Positions 5,162-17,950 of a stretch of 64,000 bases of DNA are shown piece after piece. Source of the stretch: Viridibacillus arenosi. GTDB taxonomy: Bacteria; Bacillota; Bacilli; Bacillales_A; Planococcaceae. How positions within the stretch are numbered: position 1 is the stretch's first letter; each line of letters starts with the position of its first letter. The translations under genes and the position numbers were made by a program. The stretch spans positions 248,001-312,000 of the forward strand of contig NZ_MSPW01000001.1 in the NCBI RefSeq assembly GCF_001955655.1. Reading direction: 5' to 3'. A model generated the notes under the pieces. It saw only the letters and a list, made by a program, of their open reading frames with translations. It did not search any database and had not been told where the DNA came from.

Positions 5162-5238
5162 GAATTCACCTCACTGTTTCTTTATACATATCATTATATC
5201 ACAATATATCGATATATAAACATGTGAGCTCGTAGTTT
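5044..5238. repeat. Direct repeat copy 1 (arsR 5' end and promoter)
   Basis: This segment covers the first ~40 codons of arsR and its upstream AT-rich promoter. It matches 6616-6813 in the same orientation with scattered substitutions, from CTTGTCGCTTTG at one end to the GCTC–GTTTTTT/GATTTTTT stretch at the other. The two copies bracket the broken antiporter gene. Confidence 0.9.
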
Positions 5239-6459
5239 TTTCTTCCTTTAATACCTCAGGTTTTGGTTTTTCCTTTAGATCTTCAAACTTAAATACTTTA
5301 TTAAGTCCACGATAGATATGTTTAGATTCTTTCGTAAGCAGAGGTCCCAAAATAGCCAGAATCAAGACGTAAACAGCAGCGAAAGGCTGGATAATCATCA
5401 TGAGTCCGCCAGCTTGAGCCATGTTAGCTAGAATAATGGAAAATTCACCTCGGGAGACGATGGTAAGACCGATATTAGAAGAGGCTTTCGTCGAAAGTCC
5501 CGCACTTCGTCCGGCAAGCATTCCGGCTATAAAGTTACCTATGAGAGTAACGACTACGGCAATTAGGGCTAGCCAAACGGCTTCTCCACCGAGCGCCAAA
5601 GGATCAATAGATAATCCGAAGCTGAAAAAGAATATGGCACCAAAGAAATCTTTGAATGGCATAATTAAATGCTCGATTCGATTCGCGTGAGTTGTTTCTG
5701 CAAGAACCAGTCCGCGAGAAGTGCACCGATTGCTTCAGCAACGTGAATCGTTTCAGAGAACCCTGCTACGAGGAACAAAGAACCAAAAATAACGAGGCCA
5801 AACAACTCATTGTTACGAATGTTAAGCAATTTATTGAGCAAAGGTACCAGTTTGCGTCCTACAATAATCACAACGAGCATATAACCAAGTGCAATCAGTG
5901 CACTTACAATGACACCGCCAACCGAAGAGGAATCACTGAGAACAAATCCTGAAAGAATCGAAATGTATACAGCGAGGAATACATCTTCAAACATAATAAT
6001 TCCAAGAATCATTTCCGTTTCAGGATTAGCGGTTCTTTTCAGATCAACCAATACTTTCGCTACAATGGCACTAGACGAAATGGTAGTAATTCCCGCAATA
6101 ATTAGTGCTTCTGTGACCGGGAAATCTGACATAAAACCCAACAAGAGTCCAAGCGTAAAGTTAATACCTAAATAAATACTTCCACCAACCACAATAGATT
6201 TTCCTGATTTAATCAACCTTCCGACTGAAAATTCAAGCCTAGATAGAAGAGAAGGAAAAGTACACCTATGCGACCAAGGAATGAGATAAAGGGGTCGCTC
6301 TCAATAAAACGAAAATCGAAATGCCATATCTGGCGGTCCTACCGCCATACCAATCAAAATATAGAAAGGGATGACGGAAAACCGCAGTTTAGAGGAAATC
6401 AATCCGGCTGCCGCGATAAGTACAATTGCCAAACCGACTTCAAGTACTAAATGATCCAT
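5171..6459 (-). pseudogene. CPA2 monovalent cation/proton antiporter (KhtU/KefB-like), frameshifted
   Basis: The recovered protein begins MDHLVLEVGLAIVL at 6459 and continues through LRFSVIPFYILIGM, LIKSGKSIVVGG, many transmembrane helices, RGLVLAETTHANRIEHLIM and KDFFGAIFFFSFGLSID. At least three frame changes break it: around 6300-6320, near 6220-6240 and near 5700. The C-terminus is fused to the arsR-promoter repeat and ends in unrelated residues next to the ArsR start. Intact relatives are ~390-aa K+ or Na+/H+ antiporters, often paired with a TrkA_C regulatory protein. The ~100 bases upstream (6470-6560) have a minus-strand frame that could be the tail of such a partner, though this is weak. 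The gene cannot make a full transporter. Confidence 0.88.
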
Positions 6460-8946: not shown

Positions 8947-9007
8947 CTATTTTCCTGTTACTTAATAGCACTGATGCTTAGGTTATTTTCCTTAATAGAG
9001 TCAATAC

Positions 9008-9628
9008 TTATTTTGCGGTAATTGTAGCAATTACTCTTAATTTAGACGAACTTTTTATTTCGCTAGGAAGTATTAAACTATTAATACTGGAAACTAAAGA
9101 GACATTTGAACCATGATAAAATGCTTGAGTAACAAACTTTGAACAATAATTTGATCCTATGTTATCGATGTTATGACTCAAAAGATTATACGATTGAGCA
9201 CTACTAATATTTTTTGTTGCCCAGGTTGCAGCACCACTAGCACCACTAGTTGGTCTTAGAACTGTTATTGTATTACCTGTAGGATGTCTATCAAAAAATT
9301 CTTTAGTAATTGTTGATCTACCTGCTGGAGTTCCAGTTAGAACTTCCTTAACCTTGAAATCAGTACCAATTATTACAGTATGACCAACTAAGCCGGTTGA
9401 CCATCCTTTGGAAGTATATAAAACATCACCTGGGTACATTTCTAAGGTAGAATTAGGATAAAGAGGATTCCCAACACTAAGAGGTTCTTTTTCTTTTTCT
9501 TGTTCAGATTCAATTTCATTTTCTACATTTTGGGTTTCGTGTTCTGCTGCCTGAACTGAATTTGATAACCCCGAAAAAACAATAAAAAAGACAAATAATG
9601 CAGAAATTAGTAATAATATTTTTCTCAT
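9008..9628 (-). CDS. Secreted YiiX/YebB-like permuted papain-fold hydrolase
   Basis: The 206-aa protein has a Sec signal peptide (about residues 1-28, ending VQAA), an acidic linker and a permuted NlpC/P60-type domain. The order His (GLVGHTVIIG, H83) before Cys (NYCSKFVTQAFY, C162) and the PGDVLYT entry are characteristic of the YiiX-like amidase/peptidase clan, whose members cut amide bonds in cell wall or lipids. It is a single-gene unit facing the DUF3139 gene across a 115-bp divergent promoter. The target is unknown; the catalytic pair looks intact. Confidence 0.8.
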   Translation of the reverse strand: MRKILLLISALFVFFIVFSGLSNSVQAAEHETQNVENEIESEQEKEKEPLSVGNPLYPNSTLEMYPGDVLYTSKGWSTGLVGHTVIIGTDFKVKEVLTGTPAGRSTITKEFFDRHPTGNTITVLRPTSGASGAATWATKNISSAQSYNLLSHNIDNIGSNYCSKFVTQAFYHGSNVSLVSSINSLILPSEIKSSSKLRVIATITAK

Positions 9629-11888: not shown

Positions 11889-12761
11889 TTAGTGGTCTTT
11901 GAGAAGAACATTTAGATAAGATAAATCTAATTTTGCTCTATTTAAATTTGTTTCATTTTTATTTAATGTGAATATTATTATGGCATTATTGAATGCTTCT
12001 TTGGATTCGGTATAATTTCCTTTTTTCTTTGAGAGCATTCCTATCATATGATAAATTTCACCTAGCGAATATATCAATTGATTAGACTCAATGTAGTAAA
12101 GAATTTCTTGGCATACTTTTAATGATTCATCATATAATTTTAATCTATACATACAATTTGCAAGGTTATATCCTACTCTAGGAAGTAGAGTAGGATCTTC
12201 TAAAAAATGTTGAGTTTTAATTTTTCTGTATATAACTTTATAAATATTATAGGCGTCATCCACATTGTTATACGATAAATATATTAGTCCAGTAGAATTC
12301 AATATATTAATATCTAGTTCAGATGTACAGTTCTCTAAGTTTACAAGGCTTTTTAATATATTCAATGCATCATCTAGTTTATTCTCTTTTTTATGCAGAA
12401 GTATAGATTTATGCCAGTCTATATGCTTTTTAAACTCTTTTTTACTAAATGTACTACTAAGTTCTTCTTTCACCTTGTTACATTCCTCTAGTACTAATTC
12501 TAATGCCAAATAGTCTTCTGTATAAGTGAATTCTCTGCAAAGTTTTTTTAGTTTTTGCACTTCTGCATTAAAAGGAAATAGAGCTTTTAACGGAATTTCT
12601 AATTTCATACAGATGTCATTTAAGATTTCAATTCTTGGTAATTGTTTTCCTTTTTCCAGTCTATATATCGTGGAATCATCACATATATTTTCAGCTAACT
12701 CCTTTATTGTGAGTCCTTTAGATCTTCTAAAATATGACACTTTTTCCCCTAATTTATCCAC
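11889..12761 (-). CDS. PlcR-like RRNPP quorum-sensing regulator (HTH + TPR)
   Basis: The 290-aa protein combines an N-terminal XRE-type HTH (residues ~4-60; SKGLTIKELAENICDDSTIYRLEKG, LPRIEILNDIC) with a C-terminal array of TPR-like helical repeats. The pattern RVGYNLANCMYRLKLYDESL and later repeats aligns in spacing with PlcR of the Bacillus cereus group, which has the same size. RRNPP regulators bind re-imported signalling peptides in the TPR groove and then switch DNA binding. A GTG start is used because GGAGG lies eight bases upstream. The divergent gene 109 bases away encodes a secreted propeptide with a PapR-like tail, the expected cognate signal. The shared operator lies only 17 bases from this start, so autoregulation is likely. 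Peptide pairing is inferred from context. Confidence 0.88.
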   Translation of the reverse strand: MDKLGEKVSYFRRSKGLTIKELAENICDDSTIYRLEKGKQLPRIEILNDICMKLEIPLKALFPFNAEVQKLKKLCREFTYTEDYLALELVLEECNKVKEELSSTFSKKEFKKHIDWHKSILLHKKENKLDDALNILKSLVNLENCTSELDINILNSTGLIYLSYNNVDDAYNIYKVIYRKIKTQHFLEDPTLLPRVGYNLANCMYRLKLYDESLKVCQEILYYIESNQLIYSLGEIYHMIGMLSKKKGNYTESKEAFNNAIIIFTLNKNETNLNRAKLDLSYLNVLLKDH

Positions 12762-12778
12762 TATCTATTCCTCCTTAA

Positions 12779-12832
12779 TGACACAATTATGCAAAACATC
12801 CTATTTCTTATAAGTTTATATTACATTATTAT
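12779..12832 (+). promoter_or_regulatory. Operator and promoter of the signal-peptide gene (copy 1)
   Basis: A 28-bp core at 12779-12806 reads TGACACAATT, A, then TGCAAAACATCCTATTT. Twenty bases later comes a -10-like TATTAT (12827-12832), with no good -35 box. The same core, with one difference, and the same 20-base gap occur at 13765-13818. Within it, TATGCAAAACATCCTA agrees with 8 of the 10 fixed positions of the published PlcR box. A weak promoter for the regulator (TTCATA, 17 bases, TATAAG on the minus strand) overlaps it. This suggests activation of the peptide gene and feedback on the regulator. Confidence 0.75.
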
Positions 12833-12870
12833 GAAGTTAGTCGTACATAAAAAGGAGGGGAAACAAAAAA

Positions 12871-13017
12871 ATGAAAATAAGGAAAGTAATAGTATCACTC
12901 CTACTTACATTTGGTTTAATTGTTAATTTCTCAAGTAACTTTAATATTCACAATCCCTCGTCTACTAATACTAATATTATTAAATCAGATGATTTACCGA
13001 TTGACGGGAAACACTAA
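12871..13017 (+). CDS. PapR-like secreted signalling propeptide (48 aa)
   Basis: The short gene has a strong ribosome site (AAAGGAGGGG, ten bases before the ATG) and ends in two stop codons. Residues 1-22 form a Sec signal peptide (MKIRKVIVSLLLTFGLIVNF); the rest is a short polar pro-region ending SDDLPIDGKH. PapR, the signal of PlcR, is likewise a 48-aa exported peptide whose C-terminal DLPFE-type heptapeptide is processed and re-imported. The DLP core and terminal position match. It is divergent from a PlcR-like regulator, carries the shared operator upstream, and ends at a strong terminator. The gene order differs from B. cereus, where papR follows plcR. Processing sites are inferred. Confidence 0.8.
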   Translation: MKIRKVIVSLLLTFGLIVNFSSNFNIHNPSSTNTNIIKSDDLPIDGKH

Positions 13018-13085: not shown

Positions 13086-13709
13086 TTATGAAACTACACC
13101 ACTTGAACTGCAAAGAAAGTCTGTATTTAAAGTGTGAGAACTAACAAGACCTACATAAGTCAATTGACCACCAATAGTGAATGTGTAAGTTCTACCTCCA
13201 TCAATGATTCGTGCATCGACTCCAGTTGTTTTCCAAGTACCAGATGAAGCACTTACGCCAAGACCAGAGTAGTTAGTAAATACCTGGCGACCATTGGATA
13301 ATGTTGTAGTAAATGTAGCTTTTACTGTCATAGAGACACTAGATGAACCATGACTAATATTTATCTTATGTGAAGCTGAAGATGTAGAGAATGGTGTAAT
13401 ACCAGAGTTTGGGACTCCTACAGCATTAGCTTGTGTAGCATCAACTGCCCGTTGTTTAAATACTTCTGGCGAAACCCATTCATCTTCCTTAAATTCACCA
13501 ATTGGAGCAACTTCGATCCCTACAAGGCTGTTTCCCCATTCAACAGTAGATTTTACTTCATTTAAAATCTCTACATATTGTTCATGTAACGCCTCTTTTT
13601 GCCCTTGAGTTAAAGCTTCAGCTGCTGATGCTTTATTATTTGCGATAATGAAAATACAAGCAAAAGCAAATAAAGCACTAAGGACCTTTGAAAATCTTTT
13701 CGATACCAT
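13086..13709 (-). CDS. Secreted beta-rich protein, likely output of the peptide system
   Basis: The 207-aa protein starts MVSKRFSKVLSALFAFACIF with GGAG seven bases upstream; its signal peptide ends near NKASA. A helical segment (residues ~35-95) follows, then a Ser/Thr/Gly-rich part with alternating hydrophobics (KINISHGSSSVSMTVKATFT and TYTFTIGGQLTYVGLV), suggesting a beta-sandwich. The C-terminal stretch holds one cysteine (DFLCSSSG). I do not recognise the family; a toxin, bacteriocin or surface adhesin are possibilities, none supported by a motif. The promoter carries the 28-bp element shared with the signal-peptide gene, so expression should follow population density. Confidence 0.8.
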   Translation of the reverse strand: MVSKRFSKVLSALFAFACIFIIANNKASAAEALTQGQKEALHEQYVEILNEVKSTVEWGNSLVGIEVAPIGEFKEDEWVSPEVFKQRAVDATQANAVGVPNSGITPFSTSSASHKINISHGSSSVSMTVKATFTTTLSNGRQVFTNYSGLGVSASSGTWKTTGVDARIIDGGRTYTFTIGGQLTYVGLVSSHTLNTDFLCSSSGVVS

Positions 13710-13764: not shown

Positions 13765-13818
13765 AATATAAGTGAATATAACCCTGAAATAAATAGGATG
13801 TTTTGCAAAATTGTGTCA
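13765..13818 (-). promoter_or_regulatory. Operator and promoter of the secreted-protein gene (copy 2)
   Basis: On the minus strand the core at 13818-13791 reads TGACACAATT, T, then TGCAAAACATCCTATTT. Exactly 20 bases further is a -10-like TATATT (13770-13765), again with only a weak -35 (TTTATT) abutting the core. The centre TTTTGCAAAA is a perfect palindrome. The identical geometry with copy 1 marks it as a common activator site for the PlcR-like regulator. Confidence 0.75.
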
Positions 13819-17824: not shown

Positions 17825-17950
17825 ATGGGATATCAAAATTATGGTAACAACTATGGTAATAACTATGGTAACCGTAACAATTCATCATTCGTTTTAATCG
17901 TTGTCCTATTCATTCTTCTAATTATTGTCGGCGCTAGCTTCCTGCATTAA
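17825..17950 (+). CDS. YjcZ-family sporulation peptide
   Basis: A 41-aa peptide: an Asn/Gly/Tyr-rich N-terminal repeat (NYGNNYGNNYGN) followed by a single hydrophobic helix (FVLIVVLFILLIIVGASF). This is the YjcZ/CotW-like small-protein family expressed in sporulating Bacillus cells and associated with the spore. AGGAGGG lies eight to nine bases before the ATG and a terminator follows at 18037. It supports a spore-forming host. Confidence 0.9.
   Translation: MGYQNYGNNYGNNYGNRNNSSFVLIVVLFILLIIVGASFLH

Follow-up and report, generated by a model that had tools for sequence, protein, structure and literature searches.

Organization of the locus

The window, i.e. the whole stretch of 64,000 nucleotides of Viridibacillus arenosi DNA that was analysed, contains a regulator gene and a small peptide gene placed head-to-head, followed by a gene for a secreted-type protein. 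The features considered are as follows.

11889..12761, minus strand: gene for a PlcR-like HTH–TPR regulator of 290 aa, putative pheromone receptor (assigned by Pfam, PDB match and branch support of 100/99)
12779..12806, plus strand: first copy (A) of the putative operator, TGACACAATTATGCAAAACATCCTATTT, between the regulator and peptide genes (a repeat; CACAATT-N0-4-GCA in 14/16 branch gaps)
12827..12832, plus strand: −10-like TATTAT, 45 nt from CACAATT of copy A
12853..12860, plus strand: RBS-like AGGAGGGG of the peptide gene, read from sequence
12871..13017, plus strand: propeptide gene of secreted type, 48 codons (homologous peptide in locus L006; one copy in the genome)
12994..13014, plus strand: codons for LPIDGKH, likely mature signal (or DLPIDGKH), with predicted ends (xP[IF]xG[KN]H common to L006, L145 and L146)
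13086..13709, minus strand: gene for a secreted-type protein of 207 aa, probable target (operator copy B upstream; relatives in 43/261 family genomes)
13765..13770, minus strand: −10-like TATATT, 45 nt from CACAATT of copy B
13791..13818, minus strand: second copy (B) of the putative operator, TGACACAATTTTGCAAAACATCCTATTT, near-identical to copy A and placed upstream of the gene for the secreted-type protein

The regulator gene starts with GTG at 12761, and an RBS-like cctcctt lies at 12770-12776. The ORF is as described in the original prediction of a 290-aa HTH–TPR protein: RNPP_C reaches 42 bits (Pfam cut-off 26.5), and HTH_3 and TPR_2 are also above their cut-offs. PlcR is the best PDB match, with E 2.1e-13 for the single sequence and 4.7e-23 for the branch profile. 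Judged by these matches, the regulator is a relative of PlcR, and its architecture agrees with that of RRNPP/RRNPPA receptors (N-terminal HTH followed by TPR, about 250-500 aa). A viral home was rejected: in viral contigs no relative was confirmed, and two phage records gave a short, HTH-sized match.

The peptide gene opens with ATG at 12871 and is separated from the regulator by a gap of 109 bp (12762-12870). The predicted divergent, well-initiated 48-codon gene, with its RBS-like AGGAGGGG and a product ending in SDDLPIDGKH, is thereby confirmed. In the peptide, K/R residues at the N-terminus are followed by a hydrophobic core. These features fit the predicted Sec export, a claim that we narrow to “secreted type”, as secretion was judged by a single rule of charge and hydrophobicity. 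By this rule the locus has the adjacent small propeptide with a secretion signal that is typical of RRNPP systems. Searches of Pfam, NCBIfam and PHROGs gave no match for the peptide, and no second copy was found in its own genome, apart from one match at E 0.46. The 207-aa protein belongs to a family with five invariant residues in a 16-row alignment and no confident match in the libraries tried.

Other observations concern the rest of the window. Two adjoining ORFs at 5171-6216 resemble a cation/proton antiporter in two pieces. A secreted-type protein of 206 aa (9008-9628) has a weak LnsA match (28 bits, cut-off 225), and a 41-aa peptide with a YGNN repeat is encoded at 17825-17950, the repeat stemming from a 12-base tandem repeat at 17840-17872. 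No known RNA element reached the gathering score between positions 9000 and 18000.

Peptide genes beside PlcR-like regulators

Relatives of the regulator were collected at several levels, always counting the window genome. As a single query, it matches 11/261 genomes of the family at 1e-15, and a profile built from 19 PlcR-like proteins matches 50/261 at 1e-25. In a class-wide draw of 398 genomes, 36 match at 1e-15. In addition, 12 plasmid loci were taken out of 17 matching plasmid records.

Flanks of 92 regulators, a set freed of 11 repeat loci and L017 in which some near-identical species pairs remain, were scanned for small ORFs by a rule blind to the peptide tail: 28-65 aa, an RBS match of at least 5 bases, a charged and hydrophobic N-terminus, and a position no more than 350 bp from the regulator ends. 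This disclosed 55 candidates for small ORFs of secreted type within 64.4 kb (0.85 per kb), compared with 8 in 202.4 kb (0.04 per kb) of background flanks of the same regulators, an enrichment of about 20-fold. The original prediction named a lack of peptide genes beside homologous regulators as evidence against a pair; at least one candidate, in any orientation, accompanies 51/92 regulators and none accompanies the other 41. Head-to-head pairs in relatives, to which the same prediction had looked for support, are the most numerous class, with 29 of the 55 candidates, followed by 18 downstream, 5 convergent and 3 upstream on the same strand. The dipeptide LP occurs in the last 10 residues of 39/55 candidates and of 26/29 head-to-head ones, versus 2/8 background ORFs. 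The window pair is therefore no isolated case, and no other arrangement is as frequent in the sample as head-to-head. It does differ from plcR–papR, as had been pointed out, but it is not unusual, being common among PlcR-like genes of Bacilli and having a precedent.

Several loci of the sample deserve mention in their own right. At L058 (G083), outside the B. cereus group, a convergent candidate propeptide beside a PlcR-like gene ends in LPFEF, identical to PapR5, and cross-talk with PlcR is possible there; in its relatives L045, L046 and L054 the endings are LPFEN and LPFEY. A 97-aa candidate propeptide downstream of the PlcR-like gene at L094 (G493) carries five copies of DLPSQH. At L012 and at L013, a single receptor gene is followed by a tandem pair of candidate propeptide genes whose tails differ slightly (DLPSRH and DLPSIH; DLPSRP and DLPSLP).

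In a tree of 80 rows, the window gene groups with L006 (96), then with L082-L085 (96), and then with L089, L095 and L102 (98). A bootstrapped tree of 48 rows places it in a branch of 17 rows with support of 100/99, comprising the window, L006, L082-L085, L145, L146 and nine of the twelve genes of the genus g97. L145 (Macrococcus sp. 19Msa1099) and L146 (Macrococcoides canis) are plasmid genes. The gene is present in 12/12 genomes of g97, whose family gives 13/33 matching genomes; the thirteenth match, L159, falls outside the branch in the 48-row tree. In the window's genus a close copy exists in only 1/3 genomes; one of the other two carries two PlcR-like genes of distant kinship (24-28% identity), and in the other no gene reaches the search threshold.

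A secreted-type peptide gene is found head-to-head in all 16 loci whose gap was examined (the window, L006, L145, L146 and L147-L158), the g97 peptides meeting only a looser RBS rule than that of the tail-blind scan. No head-to-head candidate was found at L082-L085, the nearest regulators outside the window's family, and upstream co-directional ORFs in L083 and L085 were discounted as peptide genes. In the family of L082-L084 the gene occurs in 3/39 genomes at 1e-28, and the ORF adjoining these three regulators resembles a threonine aldolase.

The closest relative, L006, has a regulator 56% identical to that of the window and, in the corresponding position, a gene for a homologous peptide. The two peptides are homologous over their full length (alignment score 72; none of 2000 shuffles reaches it, the best scoring 38). 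All four branch peptides outside g97 share the core xP[IF]xG[KN]H, as LPIDGKH, GPIGGNH, EPIIGNH and EPFDGNH. In L145 and L146 this core is not C-terminal, EPIIGNH and EPFDGNH being trailed by 2 and 11 residues, so that trimming at both ends would be required; PapRa7 is described as likewise internal in its propeptide (PMC3519770). Tails in g97 end in DGR[PL][RA]PI[DGN]VY in 12/12 cases, and the peptide genes of this genus are under purifying selection (pN < pS in 66/66 pairs). Random tail variation, which had been named as a further outcome unfavourable to a pair, is thus not what is seen: LP characterizes 26/29 head-to-head candidates and the core 4/4 branch peptides outside g97.

Alignment with PlcR in PDB equates its N201 with N199 of the window regulator and K204 with N202 (H in L006); the docking model of PlcRa, as described, has the matching residues contacting the peptide main chain (PMC3519770). 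PlcR Q237, which is described as contacting a glutamate of PapR (PMC6568020), corresponds to window residue 235. Covariation with this residue was assessed in 44 systems whose tail was read as [LIVMGY]P plus three residues, with L094 and L104 entered by hand and near-identical rows counted; the set leaves out the window, L006, L028, g97-type rows and other tails out of register. Between receptor residue 235 and the second residue after P, the pairings are E with N/Q (8/8), Q/R with E/D (19/19), T with K (3/3), I/V with Q (9/10), and 4 others. The suggested covariation of tail and TPR residues is therefore strong in raw counts, but it is not significant in an underpowered tree-aware test, in which only 2-3 comparisons are independent. 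In the window regulator, the lysine of LPIDGKH would lie opposite two acidic residues, E235 and E82. A natural charge switch was noted in one small branch (L016, L035, L038 and L062), where RP-ending tails go with D and EP-ending tails with N or Q at position 235.

The DNA element at the two promoters

A 28-bp element, TGACACAATTNTGCAAAACATCCTATTT, is present in the window in two near-identical copies, in the same direction relative to each gene, and no third copy was found there within 8 mismatches. A repeat finder aligned copies A and B over 51 nt at 82%. The 21-base core has two exact copies in the 4.4-Mb assembly, both in the window (reversed control 0). At 3 mismatches, three further genome copies appear, all inside coding frames and for that reason left out of the regulon. 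A long repeat or transposon was rejected as the source of the element, given only two exact core copies in the genome and an alignment of only 51 nt at 82%. The PlcR box TATGNANNNNTNCATA was likewise rejected as the operator: it occurs at 16 places in the genome, versus 15 for the reversed control, and the shared element differs from it.

The motif CACAATT-N0-4-GCA is found in 14/16 regulator–peptide gaps, being absent from L146 and L158, where simple shuffles give an expectation of 0.006, although the gaps are not independent because 12 of them belong to one genus. In 11/12 gaps of g97, the CACAATT element lies within a perfect inverted repeat, TTCACAATTTTTGCATATGTGAA. When 28 gaps of head-to-head loci were scanned for a shared element, the window was exceptional, with 1 mismatch in 22 where its five shuffles had 4-6; L088 was a borderline case (5 vs 7), and the remaining gaps were at shuffle level or one better. 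This shared element, which the original prediction had missed along with the probable secreted-protein target, strengthens the case for a signalling pair.

CACAATT and a −10-like hexamer are 45 nt apart in L006 as well as at the two window sites; the three g97 sequences tested have 46 nt and L145 has 42. This spacing is suggestive only, since the A+T-rich gaps hold other −10-like hexamers. Matches to the −35 box are weak at the window sites (3/6), and the element abuts the −35 region or reaches into it. It also lies about 20 bp from the start of the regulator gene itself, and may thus limit the level of the regulator as well. At 19 loci with relatives of the secreted-type protein, no element within 6 mismatches and no PlcR-like gene in the short flanks were found, which makes the link to the regulator specific to the window's genome in this sample.

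Proposed signalling module and comparison with known systems

Across the branch, what appear to be a receptor gene and a propeptide gene are kept head-to-head, with a conserved core in the peptide and a conserved DNA element between the genes. The regulator and the peptide very likely form a peptide–receptor signalling pair, in line with the PlcR–PapR-like quorum sensing proposed originally; kinship with PlcR, the enrichment of about 20-fold in peptide ORFs, the L006 homologue and the conserved tail core all support it. A PlcR-type (RRNPP) quorum-sensing module is the best explanation of the locus, with a probability of roughly 0.8.

In such a module, the propeptide would be exported and its C-terminal 7-8 residues trimmed off as LPIDGKH or DLPIDGKH. 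An oligopeptide permease would re-import the peptide, and the TPR groove would bind it. The peptide-loaded regulator would then bind CACAATT..TGCA upstream of a promoter whose −35 box is weak and turn on both the peptide gene, as positive feedback, and the secreted-protein gene. We infer these biochemical steps from PlcR, PlcRa and TprA2.

If the two genes are a signalling pair, activation is probably the mode of action. A position 42-46 nt upstream of a −10-like box, combined with a weak −35 (3/6), is more usual for an activator, and PlcR and PlcRa with their peptides are described as DNA-binding activators (PMC6568020, PMC3519770). The opposite sign, in which the empty regulator on the element represses both promoters until the peptide releases it, is a less likely possibility, about a one-in-four matter in our view. 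It has a model in TprA2, a regulator of the PlcR family encoded on the strand opposite to phrA2 and described as a negative regulator whose effect the peptide lifts (PMC5436883), and an element that overlaps or adjoins the −35 region could serve a repressor too.

It is improbable that the product of the small gene is secreted for a function of its own, such as that of an antimicrobial or surface peptide, under the control of a neighbouring regulator that senses another ligand. Peptide binding is here predicted from relatives, and in L082-L085 the regulator occurs with no such peptide beside it. However, what is conserved is a short C-terminal core, as long as the signals known from RRNPP systems, and such peptides widely flank PlcR-like genes. 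That the 48-codon ORF arose by chance beside an orphan regulator is hardly credible: A+T-rich sequence is rich in small ORFs, but the L006 homologue (0/2000 shuffles), the enrichment of about 20-fold and the purifying selection on g97 genes speak against it.

As for the wider picture, we lean towards a separate, scattered PlcR-type branch with its own pheromone code, an operator whose distance to the promoter is nearly constant, and an unusually small regulon here. Its members would be found in the window's family, on Macrococcus-type plasmids and throughout a whole genus of another family. The code would read xP[IF]xG[KN]H or PI[DGN]VY, and the operator CACAATT..TGCA, as a perfect inverted repeat in g97. 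The small regulon, i.e. the peptide and one secreted protein, refers to the window's genome and is held with the same leaning, as part of this joint reading. If it is true, signal, receptor and DNA target of a PlcR-type branch can all be read from sequence, so that tests of peptide binding and of the promoters, along with synthesis of the peptides, could be planned straight away. With two exact core copies in the genome, the module may offer a simple natural example in which a private signal is coupled to a single secreted product. It also gives an entry point to a secreted protein family that is found in 43/261 related genomes and has no confident library match.

PlcR–PapR of the Bacillus cereus group resembles the window pair in its HTH and TPR receptor, small propeptide of secreted type, C-terminal signal containing LP, and secreted targets. 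It differs in that papR is described as lying downstream of plcR (PMC6753895), whereas the window pair is head-to-head; in its signal, of LPFEF type as opposed to the tail LPIDGKH; and in its recognition helix. The PlcR box is, moreover, not enriched in the window's genome.

TprA2–PhrA2 of Streptococcus pneumoniae likewise pairs a regulator of the PlcR family with a gene on the other strand, phrA2, whose signal is a C-terminal heptapeptide, VDLGLAD (PMC5436883). TprA–PhrA and TprA2–PhrA2 are likened here by published description and not by sequence; unlike in the activation that we favour, TprA2 is described as a negative regulator, and the tail is another one. PlcRa–PapRa of Bacillus cereus has papRa upstream of plcRa, as is the peptide gene of the window, and the PlcRa paper, in the part compared, describes a synthetic heptapeptide as needed for DNA binding and no PlcR box as found (PMC3519770). 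It differs in that papRa codes for 93 aa with an internal CSIPYEY, and in its targets (PMC3519770).

RRNPP_detector likewise yielded candidates in Bacillota in which receptor and propeptide genes adjoin; a PlcR cluster is among them, and gene orientation has its own figure column (PMC10075063). The text of that paper, which is the part compared here, describes neither the CACAATT operator nor the P[IF]xG[KN]H code (PMC10075063). A genomic survey states, in the portion considered, that Bacillales systems of the family encode the pheromone immediately downstream (PMC9765709), a generalisation from which the window branch and many relatives depart. At the level of titles and abstracts, we did not recognise the branch, its tail code or its operator in the literature, and they may be listed in a published table. 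The apparent novelty lies in the branch together with its tail code and operator, whereas the head-to-head order and each general feature have precedents.
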